The position numbers and the translations under genes are program-made. The notes below the pieces were generated by a model. The model made no database searches and was not told the origin of the DNA. It saw nothing but the letters and a program-made list of their open reading frames with translations. A DNA stretch of 64,000 nt from Platycnemis pennipes (lineage: Eukaryota > Arthropoda > Insecta > Odonata > Platycnemididae), in NCBI GenBank assembly GCA_933228895.1, contig OW121852.1, positions 110,149,544 to 110,213,543 of the forward strand, given 5' to 3'. Each line of letters opens with the position of its first letter. The first letter of the stretch is position 1. Below are positions 3,687-48,370 of the stretch, one piece after another.

Positions 3687-5146
3687 TATTTACTCGTATA
3701 AGCCGCGCCCTCGTGTATCCCATGCACCCCTATTTTCGGGCACGCTTGTGAGGAAAAAAATTATTTTTGTAAAAAAATTATTTTTTTGGCCTTGAGTCTG
3801 CATCATTTTGTCATAACATGAAAGCACATTCTTTAACAGAAATACCTAGTCTAACTGATGTGTACGTCTTTCTCATTTATCGATTGAATTACATGTTGAT
3901 ATCGCCACGATCGTCATCGTGTTGTGCATCGATGCACAGCCTCTCATACTGTGCATCTTTTTCTCGTAGCATCTCACAGTAATCACAGTTACATACGATC
4001 ACATCATCCAGCTATAAAAATGGCATCTGTTCCAAATAACAGCCAACTGGAATAATTGCAGAAATATATTCAATTTCAACCTGCGATTACTCTATTATTA
4101 TGGAAATTCATAGGCATATCAACAAATAAAAGCAGAATGCCATCTGTACCTGATAGCGGTGGTCTCGTCTGCTCTCTGTGCAGTAACTGTGGACTGGGAC
4201 GATTCAACAACACCGGAAAGTCTTGGGAACACACGGAAAAACTAAGCTCAATGTAATAACAATTATAATTCTTATAAAACTAAAGAAAAGCGCATTCGTG
4301 AAAATGGAATCATAAATCACTAATGAATATTCATATAATAACAGCTCTCATTTTTAGTTTTTGTCACTGCTAGATTCAGATACACCATATTTCCTTCCTG
4401 CAGCTCGATTTCCTACTTTTTCAGCATAATATGTAGTTTTGTACTCACAGAAAAAGATCGCAATTTCACATCAGAATTAATTTTTAGGGTGATAATTGCA
4501 CTTTATTTTAAAATGCTAAATGATCGATTCGAACTCATTTACTACTATCACGCACGGATAGTAACAAGGTATAATCTCTGAGCATATGACTCTTGCCACT
4601 ATGTAACAAATTCTTTGTCGTGTCTTTGCAATTCAGCTTTAATGTGTACGCAAAAGGAGTTATCTATCACATAAAAATGTAGCTACAGATACGCGATACC
4701 AAAACAAACTTCGCTTATGATTTTGAAAAGACATAAAAGATGGCAGCTTACAGGATACAGTAGATTTAAATACATATCAGTGCTACAATGTGTTGCCCTA
4801 TGTATGATCTATAAACCATAAATCTATTGCTTTGTCAAGTGGTGTTTCTGATCTAGCGTTTCTTCAAGTACCGTCATACGCTCAGACTTTGTTAACTGGA
4901 TTTTTATTACTAATTACTTCAAAATTTCAGAATAATTTACAATGTACGATTTACTAATACACCATACTTACCAGTTAACGCTGATATGTTCACAAAATGC
5001 GAAACTTAGAAGAAAAAGCAAACGGGAATTTGAGGAAAAATGGTGCGCGGCTTACACAAAAATCTGGAGGATTCGTGTAAGCCGCACATCCCTATTTTTT
5101 TACAGGCGTTTCGGGAAAAAAGGCGCGTCGCTTACACGAGTAAATA
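3687..5146. mobile_element. TA-flanked TIR DNA transposon, non-autonomous
   Basis: The ends are inverted repeats: after a TA at 3687-3688 the sequence reads TTTACTCGTATAAGCCGCGC, and the right end, reversed, reads TTTACTCGTGTAAGCGACGC before TA at 5145-5146. Behind each end lies a further CCCTATTTT or AAATAGGG block next to more CGTGTAAGCCGC-like copies, so the subterminal parts are also related. The interior of about 1.4 kb has no long open frame. TA duplication and this end sequence suggest the pogo/Tigger or a related Tc1/mariner group, but the family is not proven. It is richer in CpG than its surroundings, consistent with a younger insertion. Confidence 0.65.
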
Positions 5147-20672: not shown

Positions 20673-21321
20673 CAACACACACTTCCACACCATAAGCTCG
20701 CAAAACATAGAATATATTATAAATAATGCCTGATTAAGATCCTTAGAGGCTCTAAGAGCTTGTTCAACTTAGTTCCCATTTTATGTCCTTCAAGACAAAC
20801 TACATTAAACCAAATGCAATACTTCGAAATTTAACAAAGGTACTAAAAGATGTAAAAGAATTATTATTTCTGTTTACATTCACTTCATTTATAGCTGAAA
20901 AGTTTTCAAATTACTGTGGTATCCCCCCTTCCCTTGATGCCTTAAACATTTATGTACTATTTTTATTTATGGCTAATCTAGTCCTGATTACAACAACAGA
21001 TCATCCAGCATGTTGGCAATGGGGTAAGATGCATATTCAGGGGTTTAACACTAGAAAGGCTGTATTTTCCCCATACCTAAAAGTGCCAGCGGCGGTCATT
21101 TTGACCGCTAGGTGTTTTCTCTTGTTTTCGAGGTGTATATGAAAGAATTTACGCATATATTCATTTTTGAAGTGATCTCGTATTATTATCAAATAATGTT
21201 TACATTTTTTAAAAGTAATAAATAATATTTAAAAACATTTTATTTTTTTTCGTTTTTATACATACTTCGGAATTCAACGATATATCATCAATTGTGCAAT
21301 ACAAGATATAGATAGTGGTTG

Positions 21322-21562
21322 GCAAGGGCCTAGCCACGTTGACACACCGGTTCCCGTGAGATCACCGAAGTTAAGCAACGCTGGGCCCGGACAGGGGTTG
21401 GATGGGTAACCCTCCTCCATACTTCTACCGCGGTGCTCTTGTCCCCTGTCTGCAAGTGGCGGGCAGGTTAAATGTGGGTTGGCACAATGGATCTAAAGAG
21501 GTCTAAGTGCCAGGGGGGCTCCAGAAGGCCCCCGCCCACCCCTCCAATTTATTATTTTTTTT
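21322..21562 (+). repeat. 5S rRNA-derived SINE, copy 1
   Basis: 241 bp with a perfect 13-bp target duplication TAGATAGTGGTTG (21309-21321 and 21563-21575). The first ~100 bases resemble 5S rRNA: GCCTAGCCACGTTGACACAC, GGTTCCCGTGAGATCACCGA, AGTTAAGCAACG (A box) and GGTTGGATGGGTAACC (C box), i.e. the whole type I internal pol III promoter. An unrelated body follows (GCGGGCAGGTTAAATGTGGG, GGGGGGCTCCAGAAGGC), then an A/T-rich tail ending in a T run. This is the SINE3 architecture. The perfect duplication suggests a fairly recent insertion. Confidence 0.9.
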
Positions 21563-21899
21563 TAGATAGTGGTTGTTTAGTGCATAAATATTATGTTGAG
21601 TAACTATATACCCTGCATTTACTATCATGAATTGTTTATAAGGTAAGGTAAGTAGCATCATTAAACCATGCATATAGCAATGGAATAACAGTTCTACCAT
21701 GCTAAACTTTTTTCTTCATGACAGAGAACATATGTAATAAGTTTTTCACTTCTTGATGTCCATTTTCCACTCCTTTATTTTTGGTATCTTGAACATTTTT
21801 CCATAGTTTTGTTTCATTTGCATTTTTGTACCTGACACTGATGTCTTTTTCTGATTTTTGGACCTGAAATGACATGTTCTGGACCTGACTGTGACTTGA

Positions 21900-23300
21900 T
21901 ATACTCGCTACGTAGTTCTTCAGCTAACGTCAAAATAACTTTGGGGCGGCTGATGCTTTGTATATCACCCATGCATTAATGACAGTTAAATCTAGGATAT
22001 TGTATAAAATTTGCAGAGGCCATAGGTGAGATCCAACACACGTAGTGTTATTTCTTGCCATTTGGTCCAGTATATCTAATCCATATTTTGTGGAATTGTA
22101 GAAACTGAATGACTTTGGTAATCTTTTTTCTGTATTATCTATTTCAATGCAGGGATGCATGATACTCAGCACCAATACATTTCTGTTTTTTTTACTTTGG
22201 TAGACTTATACTGTAATGTCTTCACATTATATGACTGTGGTATCGTGCAACTTAGCCTTTGACGCCCAAACTTCTTCAGGGACTCCAAGTCTCGTTCTAT
22301 CCATTGTGCCAGCAATGCTAATGCTATTTTCATTTAGTTTTCTCAACAAATGCAGTTACGAGAAAAAATTATGTCGTGACATTTTGTCCTGAATTTAGGT
22401 ATGGATGGGGTCAAGGGCCTAGCCACGTTGACACACTGGTTCCCGTGAGATCACCAAAGTTAAGCAATGTTGGGCCCGGACAAAGGTTGATGGATTACCC
22501 TCCTCCATACCTCTACCGCGGTGCTCTTGTCCCCTGTCTGCAAGTGGCGGCCAGGTTAAATATGGGTTGGCAGGTCTAAGGGGTCTAAGTGCCAGGGGGG
22601 CTCCAGAAGGCCCTCACCCACCCCTTCAATTTACATTTAGATACGGACGTAATAAGCATAACACAGCATTTTCAGGGAGACTTTCGTAGGGTGGATGCAT
22701 CTCATCTTTCCCCAGATACGGAAACCCATTGCAGAAATATTTGGAATTTACAACTTCTAACACCCAGAACTTGGTTCCAAATTTGTCTGCTTTATTTGCC
22801 ATGTACTGAGTGAATCTACACCTAGCTTTAGTTGAAAAAGGCTGCTATTCCAAGGATAGGTATTCACTAGGATTTATAGCAGGCTATACAGTTGCCCACA
22901 AAACTGTTCCATATTTTGGAAATCAATGCAACTTTATGTATACTGAGACACTGAGAACTTATCCTCCGAACATCAAAACATAGGTACCGCATGCGCTTGC
23001 AAAATGTTTCGTGGCATCGTCTGAGGGAAATAATGCTGGCCCCCAATCACTAGACCATTACATATCATAATCTAACGAACCACAACCATATGCTCCTCGT
23101 GCATACATTAGGGCAATAATAGCTTCAATTTCTTCAACAGTTGTGGTCCAATTTCCCCCACCCAAATGCACTCCTTCTGCTTCAGTGCATATTTTGATAT
23201 GCCGGTGCAAACGAAAATAAATGCCATGTGCTAGATAAATAATCTTTAGACACACTGTGTTTTTGGCTTTAGGTGATGGTCCCGGATTTTTTTTCAAAAT
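21900..23300 (-). pseudogene. piggyBac transposase, inactivated
   Basis: The remnants read in order on the minus strand. At 23297-23058 is the N-terminal part (GNWTTTVEEIEAIIAL). At about 22835-22690 is QYMANKADKFGTKFWVLEVV followed by FCNGFPYLGKDE, the start of the DDE core. At about 22380-22180 are broken pieces, and at 22175-21930 is FYNSTKYGLDILDQMARNN followed by LWPLQILYNILDLTVINAW, the highly conserved C-terminal core. Several stops and frameshifts and a SINE insertion at 22408-22635 interrupt the frame. Where relatives carry the first catalytic Asp, this copy appears to have Val. It is not functional. Confidence 0.85.
22408..22635 (+). repeat. 5S rRNA-derived SINE, copy 2
   Basis: Same family and orientation as the copy at 21322, 85-90% alike by eye, inserted in the piggyBac transposase coding remnant. 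The target duplication is imperfect (22394-22407 TTTAGGTATGGATG, 22636-22649 TTTAGATACGGACG), implying an older insertion. The 5S head is intact apart from changes in the C box (GGTTGATGGATTACC). Confidence 0.88.
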
Positions 23301-29199: not shown

Positions 29200-29905
29200 G
29201 GCATTTAATTATTGTAATTACATGCCTTCGAAATGCCTTTTCCATATTTTCTCCTTACGCAACAAATGTCTACTTCCGGGTAAAAAAAACTATTTATGAT
29301 TCTCTTGTCCATTCTAAAATTTCTTATGGTATAATCTGCTGGGGAAGGTCATATTTAAACACATTAAAGTGTGCACTAGTTTTGTAAAAAAATATAATCC
29401 GTATCATACTATCTAAACACCTTTATGAACACTTTTCACATCTAAATCTACGCGATACCTTGCAAGCCACCGCGAGGGTGTGTGGCAGGGGGTGAAGATC
29501 ACCAAGCATGCACTATCGACATGCAAACATGCTACTATAGGATCTCATGCAACTAGATTGTTAGTACATATCTACACAGTAATTAAGGGAATGGCAGTTG
29601 TATGTGGCCGTTAGATTTCTGCCACAAGGCATTTATATTTATTTAAATTCTTAGCAATGCTTTATAACATAAGTGGTAATATGCCGAGTGTATCCGAAAA
29701 ATGTAAATATAATTTAAGGAATTTGTTAAATATTGTAACATGTAGACCAAGAGTATCATTATATAAACGCTCTTTTCTGTATATGAGGCCAAAAATATAC
29801 AACGCACTGCCCACTGTAATTAAAAAATGTAAATCCTCAACAAAAATGCTAAAACTGGCCAAAGATAGACTTACTTATCAAGAAAATGTGGAATATTTAT
29901 TTTAA
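29200..29905 (+). pseudogene. Non-LTR retrotransposon C-terminus, split by another LINE
   Basis: Upstream piece to about 29436: TIYDSLVHSKISYGIICWG, matching the conserved LVHSxLSYGIxxWG block of Jockey/CR1-type proteins. Downstream piece at 29657-29905: MRPKIYNALPTVIKKCKSS, matching the RxxKIYNxLPxxIK block near their C-terminus. Between them sits an inverted, 5'-truncated LINE end (29437-29640). Frame breaks show an old copy of a family different from the inserted one. Confidence 0.65.
29437..29640 (-). mobile_element. LINE 3' end, family with GATGTA tail
   Basis: Minus-strand copy of the common 3' end (GCCACCGCGAGGGTGTGTGG, read on plus, at its core), with tail remnant ATCTAAATCTACG at the left edge. 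It is inserted in an older LINE coding remnant. Only about 200 bp of 3' sequence remains. Confidence 0.75.
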
Positions 29906-30352
29906 TTGTGTTTTTTCATTAATTGTGCATTGTATAACTGTTACTGCTTTTATTTTATAATGGCATACATCTTTTATACTGATGGTGTCTCAATTCAGGT
30001 CCTATGATCTTGGAGACCACCTAAAGATTCCGTTATATTTTTTGCATTCATCGTATCGATCATGTGGGAGTAAATAAAATATCATATATTCACCTATGGA
30101 GTTCACACCTCATGGGGTGAGGTGATTCATTCAATGATCACCAATGTATGCGCTTTCACGCCCATCCAGGTAAAGGAGAAGCTTTCGGTCTTAAATTACA
30201 ACAGTCTTCCAAATTCTTCCCCGACTGCATAAATAAAGTGCACCTTACCGCAAGGTTTTAATGTTTCCGACACATGTTATAAAGCGGAAACTTCATATAC
30301 AATCATATACGAGGATTTATTTGTCTCAAAATCGATATTAACTTATTTAAGT

Positions 30353-30472
30353 TGCATGAGACAATATAGTTGCTAGTTTGCATGTTAGTAGTGCAAGCTT
30401 GGTGATCTTCACCCCCTGCCACACACCCTCGCGGTGGCTTGCAGGGTATCGTGTAGATGTAGATGTAGATTA
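30353..30472 (+). mobile_element. LINE 3' end, solo
   Basis: Plus-strand copy of about 120 bp starting GTTGCATGAGACAATATAG and ending GGCTTGCAGGGTATCGTG, then TAGATG repeats. Nearly identical to the end of the copy at 42270-42396, so relatively young. Confidence 0.85.
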
Positions 30473-31375: not shown

Positions 31376-31510
31376 ATGTAGGTAATAACCTGTAAGCCAC
31401 CGCGGGTTGTGTGGCAGGGGGTGAATATCACTAAACATGCAACTAGGATACTACAAGGAAACATGTTAGATACATTGGCAGCCATCTAGATGAATACCAC
31501 TGTTTTCATT
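31376..31510 (-). mobile_element. LINE 3' end, solo, degraded
   Basis: Core TGTAAGCCACCGCGGGTTGT, then GGCAGGGGGTGAATATCACT. Same family as 29437 in minus orientation, with small deletions. Confidence 0.7.
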
Positions 31511-31939: not shown

Positions 31940-32129
31940 ATTCGAAAATTCGCCAAGGCGTCAAGTGATTGCCCTAGTATACATTCGTGTACCTACTCAT
32001 CTCGGCATTCATGCAATCGTCAGGTACCCATGAATTCATCTGGATATCCAAACACCTATACCCTACATATGGCACATTCCTGATCAATACGAAGCGCGCG
32101 CACGAGATTTCATGCGTTTACGGAACGTT

Positions 32130-32330
32130 ACATGTCTACATCTATGTTATTCCCTGCGAGCCACTGCGAGGGTGTGTGGCAGGGAGTGAAGATTACCAAA
32201 CATGCACTACTTAGAACCAACTTGCAAGAGCTATAAAGCTACTACTTCATGAAAACGTGTTAGATATAAGAGTTACGTGCAACTAAATGGTTAGTATCTA
32301 CACAATAACGAATTAATTACTGTTTATAAA
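32130..32330 (-). mobile_element. LINE 3' end, solo
   Basis: Tail remnant TCTACATCTATG at the left, then GCGAGCCACTGCGAGGGTGT and GTGAAGATTACCAAACATGC on plus. 5'-truncated to about 200 bp. Confidence 0.75.
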
Positions 32331-34520: not shown

Positions 34521-35711
34521 TGATATGGAGAGGTTCCACATGCTTTAGCCTGAAACCGTTAGTCATACATTATATGCCTAGTGAGTTTCACTGGATTACA
34601 CAGCACTCGGCGCGATATTGAAGTTAGGGTCTCGGTCAAGACGGATGCATTTTTCTGTGTGGAATACTTGCACAGGTGTGAATATCAACGAGAAAGGCTA
34701 ACCGTAGTCAGATGACATTCCCTTCAATGTGTACTAAATTATAGGTTAGATCATAAAAAGAATATTGGAGAGCTTAGTTAAATTTTTAAGTTCGGTAAGT
34801 CATTTTCTCCTAAGGACGCAATAATGGACGATAATATATTGAATCGAAGCTACCAGAACGATAATCGGGATACGTAACATAGCCTTTAAAATATTTCGCA
34901 AGTCTGCATGAAACTCCTAACATACGACGAATAACCTAGATTGTTTTAAATATTTCCTTGGATGATTGCACCGGATTTGTGTGATGATTGTCCACCCTCA
35001 TGATAATTTGAAATTAGAAGCAAAGTTGCGGATTAAACTACTGAGTTTCTTCGGAAAATACATGTGACCAAACAGTAACACCTGTAATACTCCAACAAAT
35101 ATTATGATTGTTTTTCGACGGCATGCTCGGTGTCATTAAAACCACTCCAACCAAACCTTTACCGTCGCTATCAGGGTACTGCGTGGAAGTAATTACGAAA
35201 GAAACAAGATTCCTTCGCGCAGGCAGATGAGAGGGCTGGGCAGGATGCGAGACGTACTGCCCAGGGGCGGGAATCCGACCTTTTATCGGTTGTCTCCCAC
35301 GCCAGTCACGATCGATGGGCCCTGGGGAGACCCCCCACCCTTCGCACCCTAACCCCCGTCCTCGCATCAAATGAGGAGGGCGTGACAACCCTTTAACGAC
35401 AAGAACTAATTACATACGAAATCTCTCGAAGATTCTGGACCAAATTAAGGACACGTTTAGCTATCAACGACACATCCTTTGACCAAAAGCATAAATGCAC
35501 CCTGAAATAGGACAAAGGCCATTGCTCTTTCGAACCATTCCGGGATACGTTGAGTTAATTCTGACTCGAGTGAATCAGGATACAATCCCCGGCCCAATTT
35601 ATGAACCCGTGTAACAGTTTTTAACGAAAAAAGTCGAGATCCTGAACGGATAGTTTAAGGGTAAACGTAATCATTTACATTAGGCGTCACTTCTAGAAAA
35701 TGTAGGATATT

Positions 35712-35905
35712 ACATCTACATCTATGTAATATCCAGCGAGCCACCACGAGGGTGTGTGGCAGGGGGTGAAGATCACCAAACCAGCACTATTGACATTCAA
35801 CTAGGATATTTAATGGAGACATGCTAGCTAATAGGGTCACATGTTGCTAGATGGCTAGTATCTACATAATAAGAAAGGGATTATTGGTTATCATTACATG
35901 CATAG
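35712..35905 (-). mobile_element. LINE 3' end, solo
   Basis: ACATCTACATCTATG tail remnant, then GCGAGCCACCACGAGGGTGT. About 190 bp of the LINE 3' region in minus orientation. Confidence 0.75.
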
Positions 35906-36465: not shown

Positions 36466-37602
36466 ATGAAAAATTACGTCCAGTTTAGCTTAAATAAAGA
36501 CGTTGTATGTGGGGTAAAAGAATTCTTAAGTGGGCGAGAGCAGAGGGTTGTCATAGATGGTATTATGTCGGACACAATCAAAGTCACATCGGGAGTTCCC
36601 CAGGGTAGCGTAGTAGGTCCGCTTCTATTTCTTTTATACATAAACGATTTGGGTACCGTAGTTAGTAGTAAGCTTAGACTTTTTGCAGGTAGTGTATAGG
36701 GGTATATAAAAAGAAGAAGACAAGAAATCGCTTATCAAGGATTTAGATGCAATTCAAGAGTGGTGCGACGAATGGCAGTTAGAGCTTAACCTTAAAAAGT
36801 GTGTAGCTATTACTTTTTGGAGGAGGAATAATTCGATACGGCGATCCTATAAAATTAGTAACACGAAGATCGAAAGCGTTGAAACCATAAGGTATTAAGG
36901 TGTAACAATCACTAAAGATTTATCGTGGGGAAGACACATCCGGGAAATATGCGGCCGAGCGAAGATAGGATTTATAAAAAAAGTACTTGGAAAATGTGAT
37001 GAGAAGACAAAAGAGCGATGTTACTTTTCTCTAGTTAGGCCCCACCTTGAGTATGCAGCCAGTGCATGGGATCCGAATGAATTAGGTTTCATCAGAGAGC
37101 TAGACAGTGTGCAGCGTAGAGCAGCTAGGTTCGTTAAAAGGTGCCACGATAGGTTGAGTAGTGTTTCAGAATTAATACAAGAATTAGGGTGGGAATCATT
37201 ATCAGAGAGTAGGTTTGTACAGATTAAATTTATAAGATAAGTTTCAATCGGATAGCTTTACAGAAGATGTTAGGCACAAATTAAAAACACCAGCGTATTA
37301 TGCTAGATTCGACCACTAAGATTAGAGAGATAGATAGCCGTACTGATAGATTCAAAATGGCATTTTTCCCTCGTACTATAAGAGAACAGAATAGGCAGCA
37401 TAGCAAAGGGATAGGTAGGGGAAATATTTTAGAGTAGTCTGTAGTGCATGATGCATGTATTACTCTCGTAAATACTATAGATACAAACAATCTAGTTGCA
37501 TGTGACCCTATAGTTGCTTGTTTGCATGTCAATAGCGCATACTTAGTGATCTTCACACACACCCCCGCGGTGGCTTGCAGGGTATCGCGTGGATGTAGAT
37601 GA
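36466..37602 (+). pseudogene. LINE (CR1/L2-like) RT, 5'-truncated and broken
   Basis: Begins in the RT palm with VKEFLSGREQRVVIDG and [20 protein letters not shown] (RT motifs 4-5), continues through thumb and C-terminal blocks with stops and frameshifts, and ends in GGTGGCTTGCAGGGTATCG and GATGTAGATG. Compared with 41310-42396 about 8 bases are missing right at the FADD catalytic motif (TTTGCAG joins GTAGTG). Roughly 90% identical to that copy. Not active. Confidence 0.85.
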
Positions 37603-41309: not shown

Positions 41310-42396
41310 AACATATAGATGGTATCATGTCGGACACAATCGAAGTCACATCGGGAGTTCCCCAGGGTAGCGTAGTAGGTCCGCTTCTATTTCTTTTATA
41401 CATAAACGATTTGGGTACCGTAGTTAGTAGTAACCTTAAGACTTTTTGCAGACGATGCGGTAGTGTATAGGAGTATATCTAAAGAAGAAGACAGGGAATC
41501 GCTTAGCAAGGATTTAGATGCAATTCAAGAGTGGAGCGACAAATGGCAGTTAGAACTCAACCTTGAAAAGTGTGTAGCTATCAATTTTTGGAGAAGGAAT
41601 AATTCGATAGAGCAATCCTATAGAATTAATAACACGAAGATCGAAAACGTTGAAACCGTAAGATATTTAGGTGTAACAAACACTAAAGATTTATCGTGGG
41701 GTAGACACATCCGGGAAATATGCGGCCGAGCGAAGAGAAAGCTAGGATTTATAAAAAGAGTACTTGGGAAATGTGATGAGAAGACAAAAGAGCGATGCTA
41801 CTTTTCTCTAGTTAGGCCCCACCTTGAGTATGCAGCCAGTGTATGGGATCCTAATGAATTAGGTTTGATGAGAGAACTAGACAGTGTGCAGCGTAGAGCA
41901 GCTAGGTTCGTCAAAAGGTGTTACGATAGGTTGAGTAGTGTATCAGAATTAATACAAGAATTACGGTGGGAATCATTATCAGAGCGTAGGTTAAAGTTCA
42001 GATTAAATCTATTAGAGAAATTTCAATCGGATAGCTTTACTGAAGATGTTAGGCACATATTAAAAACACCAGCGTATTATGCTAGATTCGACCAGCCAAA
42101 TAAGATTAGAGAGATAGATAGTCGTACAGATAGATTCAAAATGTCATTTTTCCCCCGTACTATAAGAGAACAGAATAGGCAGCATAGGAGAGGGATAGGT
42201 AGGGGAAATATTTTAGAGTATTATGTAGTGCATGATGCATTTCTTACCCCTTAAATACTGTAGACACTAACAATCAAGTTGCATGAGACAATATAGTTGC
42301 TAGTTTGCATGTTAGTAGTGCATGCCTGGTGATCTTCACCCCCTGCCACACACCCTCGCGGTGGCTTGCAGGGTATCGTATAGATGTAGATGTAGA
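41310..42396 (+). pseudogene. LINE (CR1/L2-like) RT, best-preserved copy
   Basis: 5'-truncated inside the RT palm ([19 protein letters not shown]). One extra base before [11 protein letters not shown] breaks the frame, after which 263 codons are open: DLDAIQEWSDKWQLELNLEK, VRYLGVTNTKDLSW, SLVRPHLEYAASVWDP, ELDSVQRRAARFVK, FFPRTIREQN. These are the usual thumb and C-terminal blocks of CR1/L2-type non-LTR proteins. The 3' UTR ends in the family hallmark CCCTGCCACACACCCTCGCG, then GATGTAGATGTAGAT. Apparently the youngest copy in the window. Confidence 0.9.
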
Positions 42397-46301: not shown

Positions 46302-46689
46302 AAAATCCAATCCAATCAGAATTTTTTTCGCATGGCAATTAATGTGAATTTCACTGCCGTTCACGCGGCAGGATTGAATTATCCTACATTTACCGCCAAG
46401 CGCGGCTTTAGCGCTGGGTGGGGTTCACCTTTGAAGCCCTTTCTCTCTTGCGTTGCCATCCTTGATGGACCGCGAGGGCTCAACATCTAGTGCCTTGAAC
46501 CTCGGTAAAAATTGCCATGCGAATTAAGGATCTTGGGTAGCGTAGTGGTCTGCGCAGTGGCCCGGAAAGCCAAAGGTCCGAGGTTCAATTCCCGGTCCAG
46601 GTGATTTTTTTCGCATGGCGATTAATGTGAATTTCACCGCCGTTCACGCGGCAGGATTGAATTATCCTACACTAAAAATCCAATCTAAT
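46302..46689 (+). repeat. tRNA-derived SINE with duplicated body
   Basis: Flanked by AAAATCCAATCCAAT and AAAATCCAATCTAAT (15-bp duplication, one mismatch). Inside, a 68-bp block (TTTTTTTCGCATGGC to GAATTATCCTACA) occurs at 46321-46388 and again at 46604-46671, offset 283 bp. Between the copies is a tRNA-like head: TAGCGTAGTGGTCTGCGC, then GGTCCGAGGTTCAATTCCCG. The order body, tRNA head, body inside a single duplication indicates a partial dimer transposed as a unit. Confidence 0.75.
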
Positions 46690-47829: not shown

Positions 47830-48263
47830 GTAACTACCACATCCACATCTACATCTATATAATACCCTGCAAGCCACCATAAAGGTGTGTGGCGGGGGGT
47901 GAATTATCACCAAACATGCACTACATATCATGCGTTAAAAAGGATTAGTATTTATATACTGTTCTAAACTACACTATTTAAGAGAAGATAAAAATAGCAA
48001 AGCAAACATGCAAAAACATGCTGTTAGTTGGGTTAGCTTCAAGTCCTTATACCAACATGCAGCTACCAATGTTATCCATTGCTACACTCGTACTGGATAT
48101 ATTTACCGTTATTCATATCCCTAATTGTACGAGGAAAAAAGGACATTTTGAATCTGTCAGTTCGGCAATCAATTTCTCTAATTTTGTGATTATGGTCCAG
48201 TCTACCATAGTAAGTTGGGATTCGCAAAATATTTTCAACATCATCACTGAAAATATCAATCAA
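47830..48263 (-). pseudogene. LINE 3' part with C-terminal coding remnant
   Basis: Minus strand 48263-48072 reads DDVENILRIPTYYGRLDHN, then KIREIDCRTDRFKMSFFPRT, matching the C-terminus of the copy at 41463-42254. It is followed by the family 3' UTR to a CATCTACATC tail at 47830. 5'-truncated. Confidence 0.8.
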
Positions 48264-48275
48264 AGATCAAACGCA

Positions 48276-48370
48276 ATAACCGCAAGCCACCGCGAGAGAG
48301 AGTGGCAGGGGAAGAAGATGATCATACATGCACGATTGACCTGCAACTAGGCTACTACAAGGAAACATAT
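48276..48370 (-). mobile_element. LINE 3' end, adjacent second copy
   Basis: GCAAGCCACCGCGAGAGAGA, then CTAGGCTACTACAAGGAAAC (plus-strand reading). Same family and orientation, directly 5' of the copy at 47830-48263. Its own tail is missing. Confidence 0.65.

Follow-up and report, generated by a model that had tools for sequence, protein, structure and literature searches.

Zebrafish SINE3 is the type case of SINE3, the SINEs whose heads derive from 5S rRNA. Besides this vertebrate example, 5S-derived SINEs have been described from fruit bats and springhare (PMC8010984), and the insect cases given in the relevant sections of the literature are Tribolium SINE3-1_TC, Helicoverpa HaSE3, and families from Plutella, Lerema, and Chilo (PMC3272025, PMC8010984), with four additional lepidopteran families on record (PMC10886601). 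Planthoppers also carry SINE-like sequences with the SINE3-1_TC motif, one copy of which resides in an iridovirus (PMC6401454). The original prediction held that such elements are known mainly from fish and a few mammals and are rarely described in arthropods, which is only partly right, because SINE3 elements have been reported from Tribolium, Lepidoptera, and planthoppers (PMC8010984, PMC3272025, PMC10886601, PMC6401454).

HaSE3, from Helicoverpa armigera, resembles the damselfly family presented here in its 5S-derived head with boxes A, IE, and C (PMC3272025). Compared by description, it differs in sharing its body and tail with HaSE1, a tRNA-derived SINE, and its 3′ end with an RTE LINE that terminates in TGA repeats (PMC3272025), whereas no such sibling or LINE was found in our searches. 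The lepidopteran PxSE4, PxSE5, LaSE2, and CsSE2 likewise have 5S-derived heads and are present in 532 to 4,415 copies; they measure 294–389 bp and have (TGA)n or (ATGT)n tails where a tail is given (PMC8010984). Judged by these descriptions, the damselfly family is set apart by a length of ~236 bp and a T-rich tail that sometimes repeats ACATTT. SINE3-1_TC and the planthopper sequences, which share the insect SINE3 type or its motif, come from other orders (PMC3272025, PMC6401454).

The window, the whole 64,000-nucleotide stretch of Platycnemis pennipes DNA that was analyzed, holds two elements on the same strand, 1.1 kb apart. We put at roughly 93% the probability that both are insertions of a P. 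pennipes 5S rRNA-derived SINE of the SINE3 type, mobilized through RNA polymerase III (Pol III) and a LINE enzyme. Copy 1 covers 241 bp (21322..21562, plus strand) and is bounded by target duplications, with one extra G at its 5′ limit that is ambiguous with the duplication; copy 2, the older of the two, covers 22406..22634 (plus strand), its start possibly being 22408. As predicted, both have 5S-like heads on the plus strand that match the full Rfam model RF00001 (model 1–120), at 21323..21442 in copy 1 (46.2 bits, E = 2e-6 for the whole window) and at 22412..22530 in copy 2 (41.2 bits, E = 4.1e-5 for the whole window). Both lie above the gathering score of 38, and they are the two 5S matches in the window at that threshold. 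Against the commonest 5S gene variant sampled from the same genome, the head of copy 1 shows 84.8% identity across 79 nt and that of copy 2 84.7% across 59 nt. The best 21 of 47 genome matches scored, which we take to be its own 5S genes, reach 105.6–118.5 bits, so the window heads, at 46.2 and 41.2 bits, are derived sequences rather than ordinary 5S genes. On three small contigs (G000:C19, C37, and C61), 5S matches occur both at full length (model 1–120) and in a shorter form (model 11–110), suggesting a truncated 5S variant within arrays.

A complete internal promoter had been predicted, and part of it stands. With the limits of the A box, intermediate element, and C box placed on what we take to be the layout of 5S promoters, all three fall inside the 79-nt 5S-like stretch of copy 1, beyond which likeness to 5S is mostly lost. 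The A-box region was located as a string in both copies (21367..21386 and 22456..22475, plus strand), in copy 1 also by alignment to the species' own 5S. By the same alignment, the C-box core of copy 1 (21399..21411, plus strand) reads TGGATGGGTAACC against TGGATGGGTGACC in the 5S gene, a single difference. The parts that did not hold are the intermediate element, in which both copies depart from the 5S gene (21389..21401 in copy 1, plus strand), and the C-box core of copy 2 (22489..22499, plus strand; aligned to the species' own 5S), which is damaged by substitutions and a deletion (GATGGATTACC). The sequence immediately 3′ of box C is also unlike the 5S gene, and because of this and the altered intermediate element, promoter activity is not assured.

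The likeness between the copies extends well past the 5S part (90.0% identity over 229 nt), bearing out the non-5S body that had been proposed. This body occupies 21443..21544 (plus strand) in copy 1 and is common to copy 2 and to the genomic copies. Close to its end, the predicted consensus fold places a G/C-rich 3′ hairpin at 21507..21535 (plus strand), with the corresponding region of copy 2 at 22589..22617 (plus strand); this hairpin is a candidate recognition element for the reverse transcriptase of a partner. The expected T-rich tail is present in copy 1 (CAATTTATTATTTTTTTT, 21545..21562, plus strand), where it may act as a Pol III terminator, and is short in copy 2. Similarly, the predicted target duplications are perfect around copy 1, as an exact 13-nt repeat of TAGATAGTGGTTG (21309..21321 and 21563..21575, plus strand), and degenerate around copy 2, where ATTTAGGTATGGA (22393..22405, plus strand) matches ATTTAGATACGGA (22635..22647, plus strand) at 11 of 13 positions, or at 12 of 15 when extended to 22407. 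The flanks of copy 2 failed the test for exact duplication, with a longest match of 6 nt; a shuffled downstream flank equalled or beat the degenerate duplication in 4 of 500 shuffles.

Two minus-strand matches to the transposase profile DDE_Tnp_1_7 (PF13843) flank copy 2, with profile positions 136–204 at 22626–22844 (E = 9.5e-7) and 274–349 at 21930–22205 (E = 9.9e-6). We take this remnant to be of piggyBac type, and as it lies on both sides of copy 2, the SINE is nested in an older, broken DNA transposon. Elsewhere in the window are two LINE copies with a reverse transcriptase end (36553–37601 and 41315–42392, 89.6% identical), of which the second alone yielded a PF00078 match and has a TAGATG-repeat tail. 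Seven pieces of ~75–200 bp partly resemble the 3′ end of this LINE (29438–29589, 30349–30470, 31376–31472, 32128–32327, 35710–35891, 47840–47933, and 48282–48357) and are either shortened LINE copies or a SINE family using the LINE tail. A tRNA-like sequence at 46531–46603 (Rfam, 42.1 bits), in which ARAGORN calls no tRNA, is adjoined by a 68-bp direct repeat (46321–46388 and 46604–46671, 97% identical).

The arrangement of the two window copies can be set against a small LTR element carrying 5S sequence in its LTRs, with the copies being its two LTRs. Elements of the Cassandra or Ajax kind do bear a 5S promoter (PMC10886601), but the window copies each have their own, different flanking duplication, are 10% divergent from each other, and are separated by the piggyBac-type remnant. 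Across the genome, duplications of 12–15 nt at 31 of 40 copies contrast with the 5 bp reported for Ajax (PMC10886601). Two LTRs, as in an Ajax-type 5S TRIM, or the pairing expected of Cassandra, whose 5S-bearing LTRs accompany a PBS and a PPT, were not seen in 39 loci excised with ~500 bp of flank at either end, as no second match at E 1e-20 turned up in any of them; two SINE copies do occur together in some loci outside these 39, L100 being one. We consider an LTR origin highly improbable.

To place the copies in their family, we searched the genome (1,793,331,434 bases in 88 contigs). The search with copy 1 returned 4,076 candidates, and the 40 places scored were 95–100% identical. A 26-mer from the body, allowing ≤3 mismatches, was found at 3,866 places and a second body 20-mer gave 1,065 exact matches, with no match for the control in either case (for the 26-mer, the reversed pattern); both counts are of places, not of full-length copies. 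This search confirmed the family that had been predicted. The element is short, non-coding, dispersed, and multicopy (~236-bp consensus, 3,866 places), as SINEs are, and it combines the features of SINE3, namely a 5S-derived head scoring above the gathering threshold and a body that is shared by the copies and unrelated to 5S. The consensus, of ~236 nt, was built from 41 aligned copies, whose mean divergence of 2.1% overstates the youth of the family because only best matches were included. Copy 1 diverges from it by 2.6% and copy 2 by 8.4%. In a sample of 20 consecutive chromosome-1 copies, selected solely by an exact 20-mer, identity to the consensus was 83–97% (median about 91%), with some copies not full length. 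From this spread, it follows that the family was active over a long period and that some copies are young. Three matches on chromosome 1 (G000:C1:162506963, 162512900, and 162518837) are spaced exactly 5,937 bp apart, which suggests a tandem duplication carrying the SINE. Viral contigs gave no match to a body 20-mer.

These data also bear on the idea that the copies are 5S rRNA retropseudogenes dispersed through the genome, or what is left of 5S gene clusters, with no SINE family behind them. The genome does contain many 5S-like matches outside the SINE. Two of the lower-scoring ones, L059 and L060, are simply derived from 5S and agree with the gene at 98.1% over 107 nt and at 95.6% over 113 nt, respectively. 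Unlike these pseudogenes, each window head has ~85% identity to the gene where it aligns best, and SINE copies have a common ~110-nt body beyond the 5S sequence and one 3′ end; the recurrence of the body 26-mer at thousands of places speaks against retropseudogenes as well. We regard this explanation as very improbable, and the prediction of a 5S rRNA-derived SINE family is supported by the 5S heads, the common body, the thousands of places, and the duplications together.

Marks of insertion recur across the family. Of 40 copies, counted without the duplicate locus L005, 36 are bordered by an exact duplication ≥9 nt long (median 13), compared with 9 of 1,600 mismatched pairs in which the flanks came from different copies; copy 2 is among the four that failed. 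Leaving out one further copy with a mutated tail anchor (L040), 35 duplication-bearing copies remained for analysis of duplication starts and tails. Their duplications begin with T in 27 cases and with TT in 16, where the flanks contain 31% T and 11% TT, although part of the T-start excess stems from how the longest match is drawn. Duplications that start with T, together with a tail that ends in T, fit priming by pairing of a U-rich RNA end with the target. Within the tail, 22 of the 35 contain ACATT, and 25 have TTTT there or at the tail junction. Upstream of the tail, TTTT is absent from all 41 aligned copies and from the consensus, as expected for a Pol III transcript that terminates in the tail; among the older copies of the chromosome-1 sample, 2 of 20 do contain an internal TTTT.

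Taken as a mechanism, these features would describe a SINE transcribed by Pol III from its internal 5S-type promoter (A box, intermediate element, and C box), with transcription ending in the T-run that the tail provides. A reverse transcriptase encoded by a LINE would then recognize the 3′ hairpin together with the U-rich end, nick the DNA at a T-rich site, and reverse transcribe the SINE RNA there, producing duplications of ~13 nt. The structure, copy number, duplications, tail, and T-rich duplication starts are observed; transcription, termination, and the LINE source of the enzyme are inferred.

The original prediction proposed finding the partner LINE by comparing the 3′ end of the body with LINE 3′ ends, and this comparison yielded no partner at four SINE boundaries (126, 149, 188, and 216) or in 12 LINE 3′ ends. 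The boundary searches combined a body or tail pattern with a requirement for non-SINE sequence upstream, and part of the matches was read. At boundary 126 there were 50 matches (control 0), assessed from the matched letters alone. Boundary 149 gave 39 matches, and the 25 read comprised 12 continuous SINE copies, 3 interrupted copies, and 10 headless ones, which near the junction did not resemble one another upstream at E 1e-6. All 10 read among the 23 matches at boundary 188 were SINE copies with indels, insertions, or rearrangements. At boundary 216, a search with 0 mismatches and 10 excluded positions had no matches, the pattern being too strict to inform, and a looser one had 71 (control 5), of which 10 were read as 7 SINE copies and 3 tail-only loci with unrelated upstream sequences. 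Six-frame translation of two loci with foreign upstream sequence (L091 and L102) revealed no LINE end by eye. The 12 LINE stretches, each the 1.5 kb after a reverse transcriptase domain, form about seven families by mutual similarity and were drawn from 150 scored of 62,018 candidate reverse transcriptase matches; the SINE tail was not found in them (best likeness 20 nt, E = 1.9), and the true 3′ end may fall outside some of the stretches. The LINE inside the window has a different 3′ end, with TAGATG repeats. The partner may be extinct, may have diverged at its 3′ end, or may lie outside the sampled part.

The matches at boundaries 126 and 149 also bear on a recombinant origin, in which template switching would have placed a 5S head on a body and tail taken from a tRNA-derived SINE. 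HaSE3 is given such a history by its authors (PMC3272025), and other SINE-like pieces are present in the window. Against this, the 43 of 50 matches at boundary 126 for which letters were shown were mostly shifted or deleted SINE versions with no recurring other head, and the 10 headless loci among the 25 read at boundary 149 had no common upstream sequence. We consider a history of this kind unlikely for the damselfly family. Two rearranged copies were also encountered. In L084 (~1440–1800; G000:C9:11974299), the 5S-SINE body includes an extra 53-nt block that shares 81% identity with the window LINE's 3′ hairpin, and in L087 (~1522–1731), the 5S-SINE is broken by a ~209-bp insert with an antisense tRNA-like look, as judged by eye.

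We also examined folding of the SINE RNA. The consensus has a predicted fold of −105.8 kcal/mol (z = −3.7), more stable than 200 shuffles, in which a 5S-like head is accompanied by a hairpin domain close to the 3′ end. In a hand-set ungapped alignment of the consensus, the head runs as far as the 5S gene itself does. Terminal helix I keeps 9 of 9 pairs in this alignment despite substitutions at 5 of its 18 bases relative to the 5S gene L009 and at 6 of 18 relative to the commonest sampled variant. Two pairs are changed on both sides (C-G to G-C and C-G to G-U), and the single mismatched helix I position of the commonest 5S variant is paired in the SINE. Automatic alignment retained 5 of 8 helix I pairs, a count equalled or beaten in 2,983 of 20,000 random trials, and across the whole head it retained 29 of 41 pairs (equalled or beaten in 1,118 of 5,000); as we read it, this alignment misplaced the 3′ strand of helix I. 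Random changes kept all helix I pairs in 6,530 of 100,000 trials at the same five sites and in 263 of 100,000 at random sites, so the support for helix I is modest and alignment-dependent. Per copy, 35 of the 40 best keep 9 pairs and 5 keep 8; 17 of the 20 chromosome-1 copies span both strands, and of these, nine retain 9 pairs, four retain 8, three retain 7, and one has an indel. These counts are not independent support, because the copies share ancestry. It is conceivable, though we think it improbable, that the whole 5S fold has been kept and that the SINE RNA might bind 5S-binding proteins and so reach ribosomes, beside newly made LINE reverse transcriptase. Alu is thought to use SRP proteins similarly. 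If the retained 5S fold is functional, the family would make it possible to test by what route SINE RNAs come to LINE enzymes.

There is some chance, which we judge to be well short of even, that the family is already catalogued in Repbase, Dfam, or an Odonata repeat library. Further insect SINE3 families are in Repbase (PMC10886601). In the open-licence literature, we found no paper combining SINEs with Odonata or damselfly, and the main text of the genome note for this species has no word starting with "sine" or "repeat." The damselfly family adds an insect case of a mobile element reusing the 5S promoter, and with it, 5S-derived SINEs would extend to Odonata, an early-branching order of winged insects. 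Its young copies with clear duplications may be usable as phylogenetic or population markers in damselflies.
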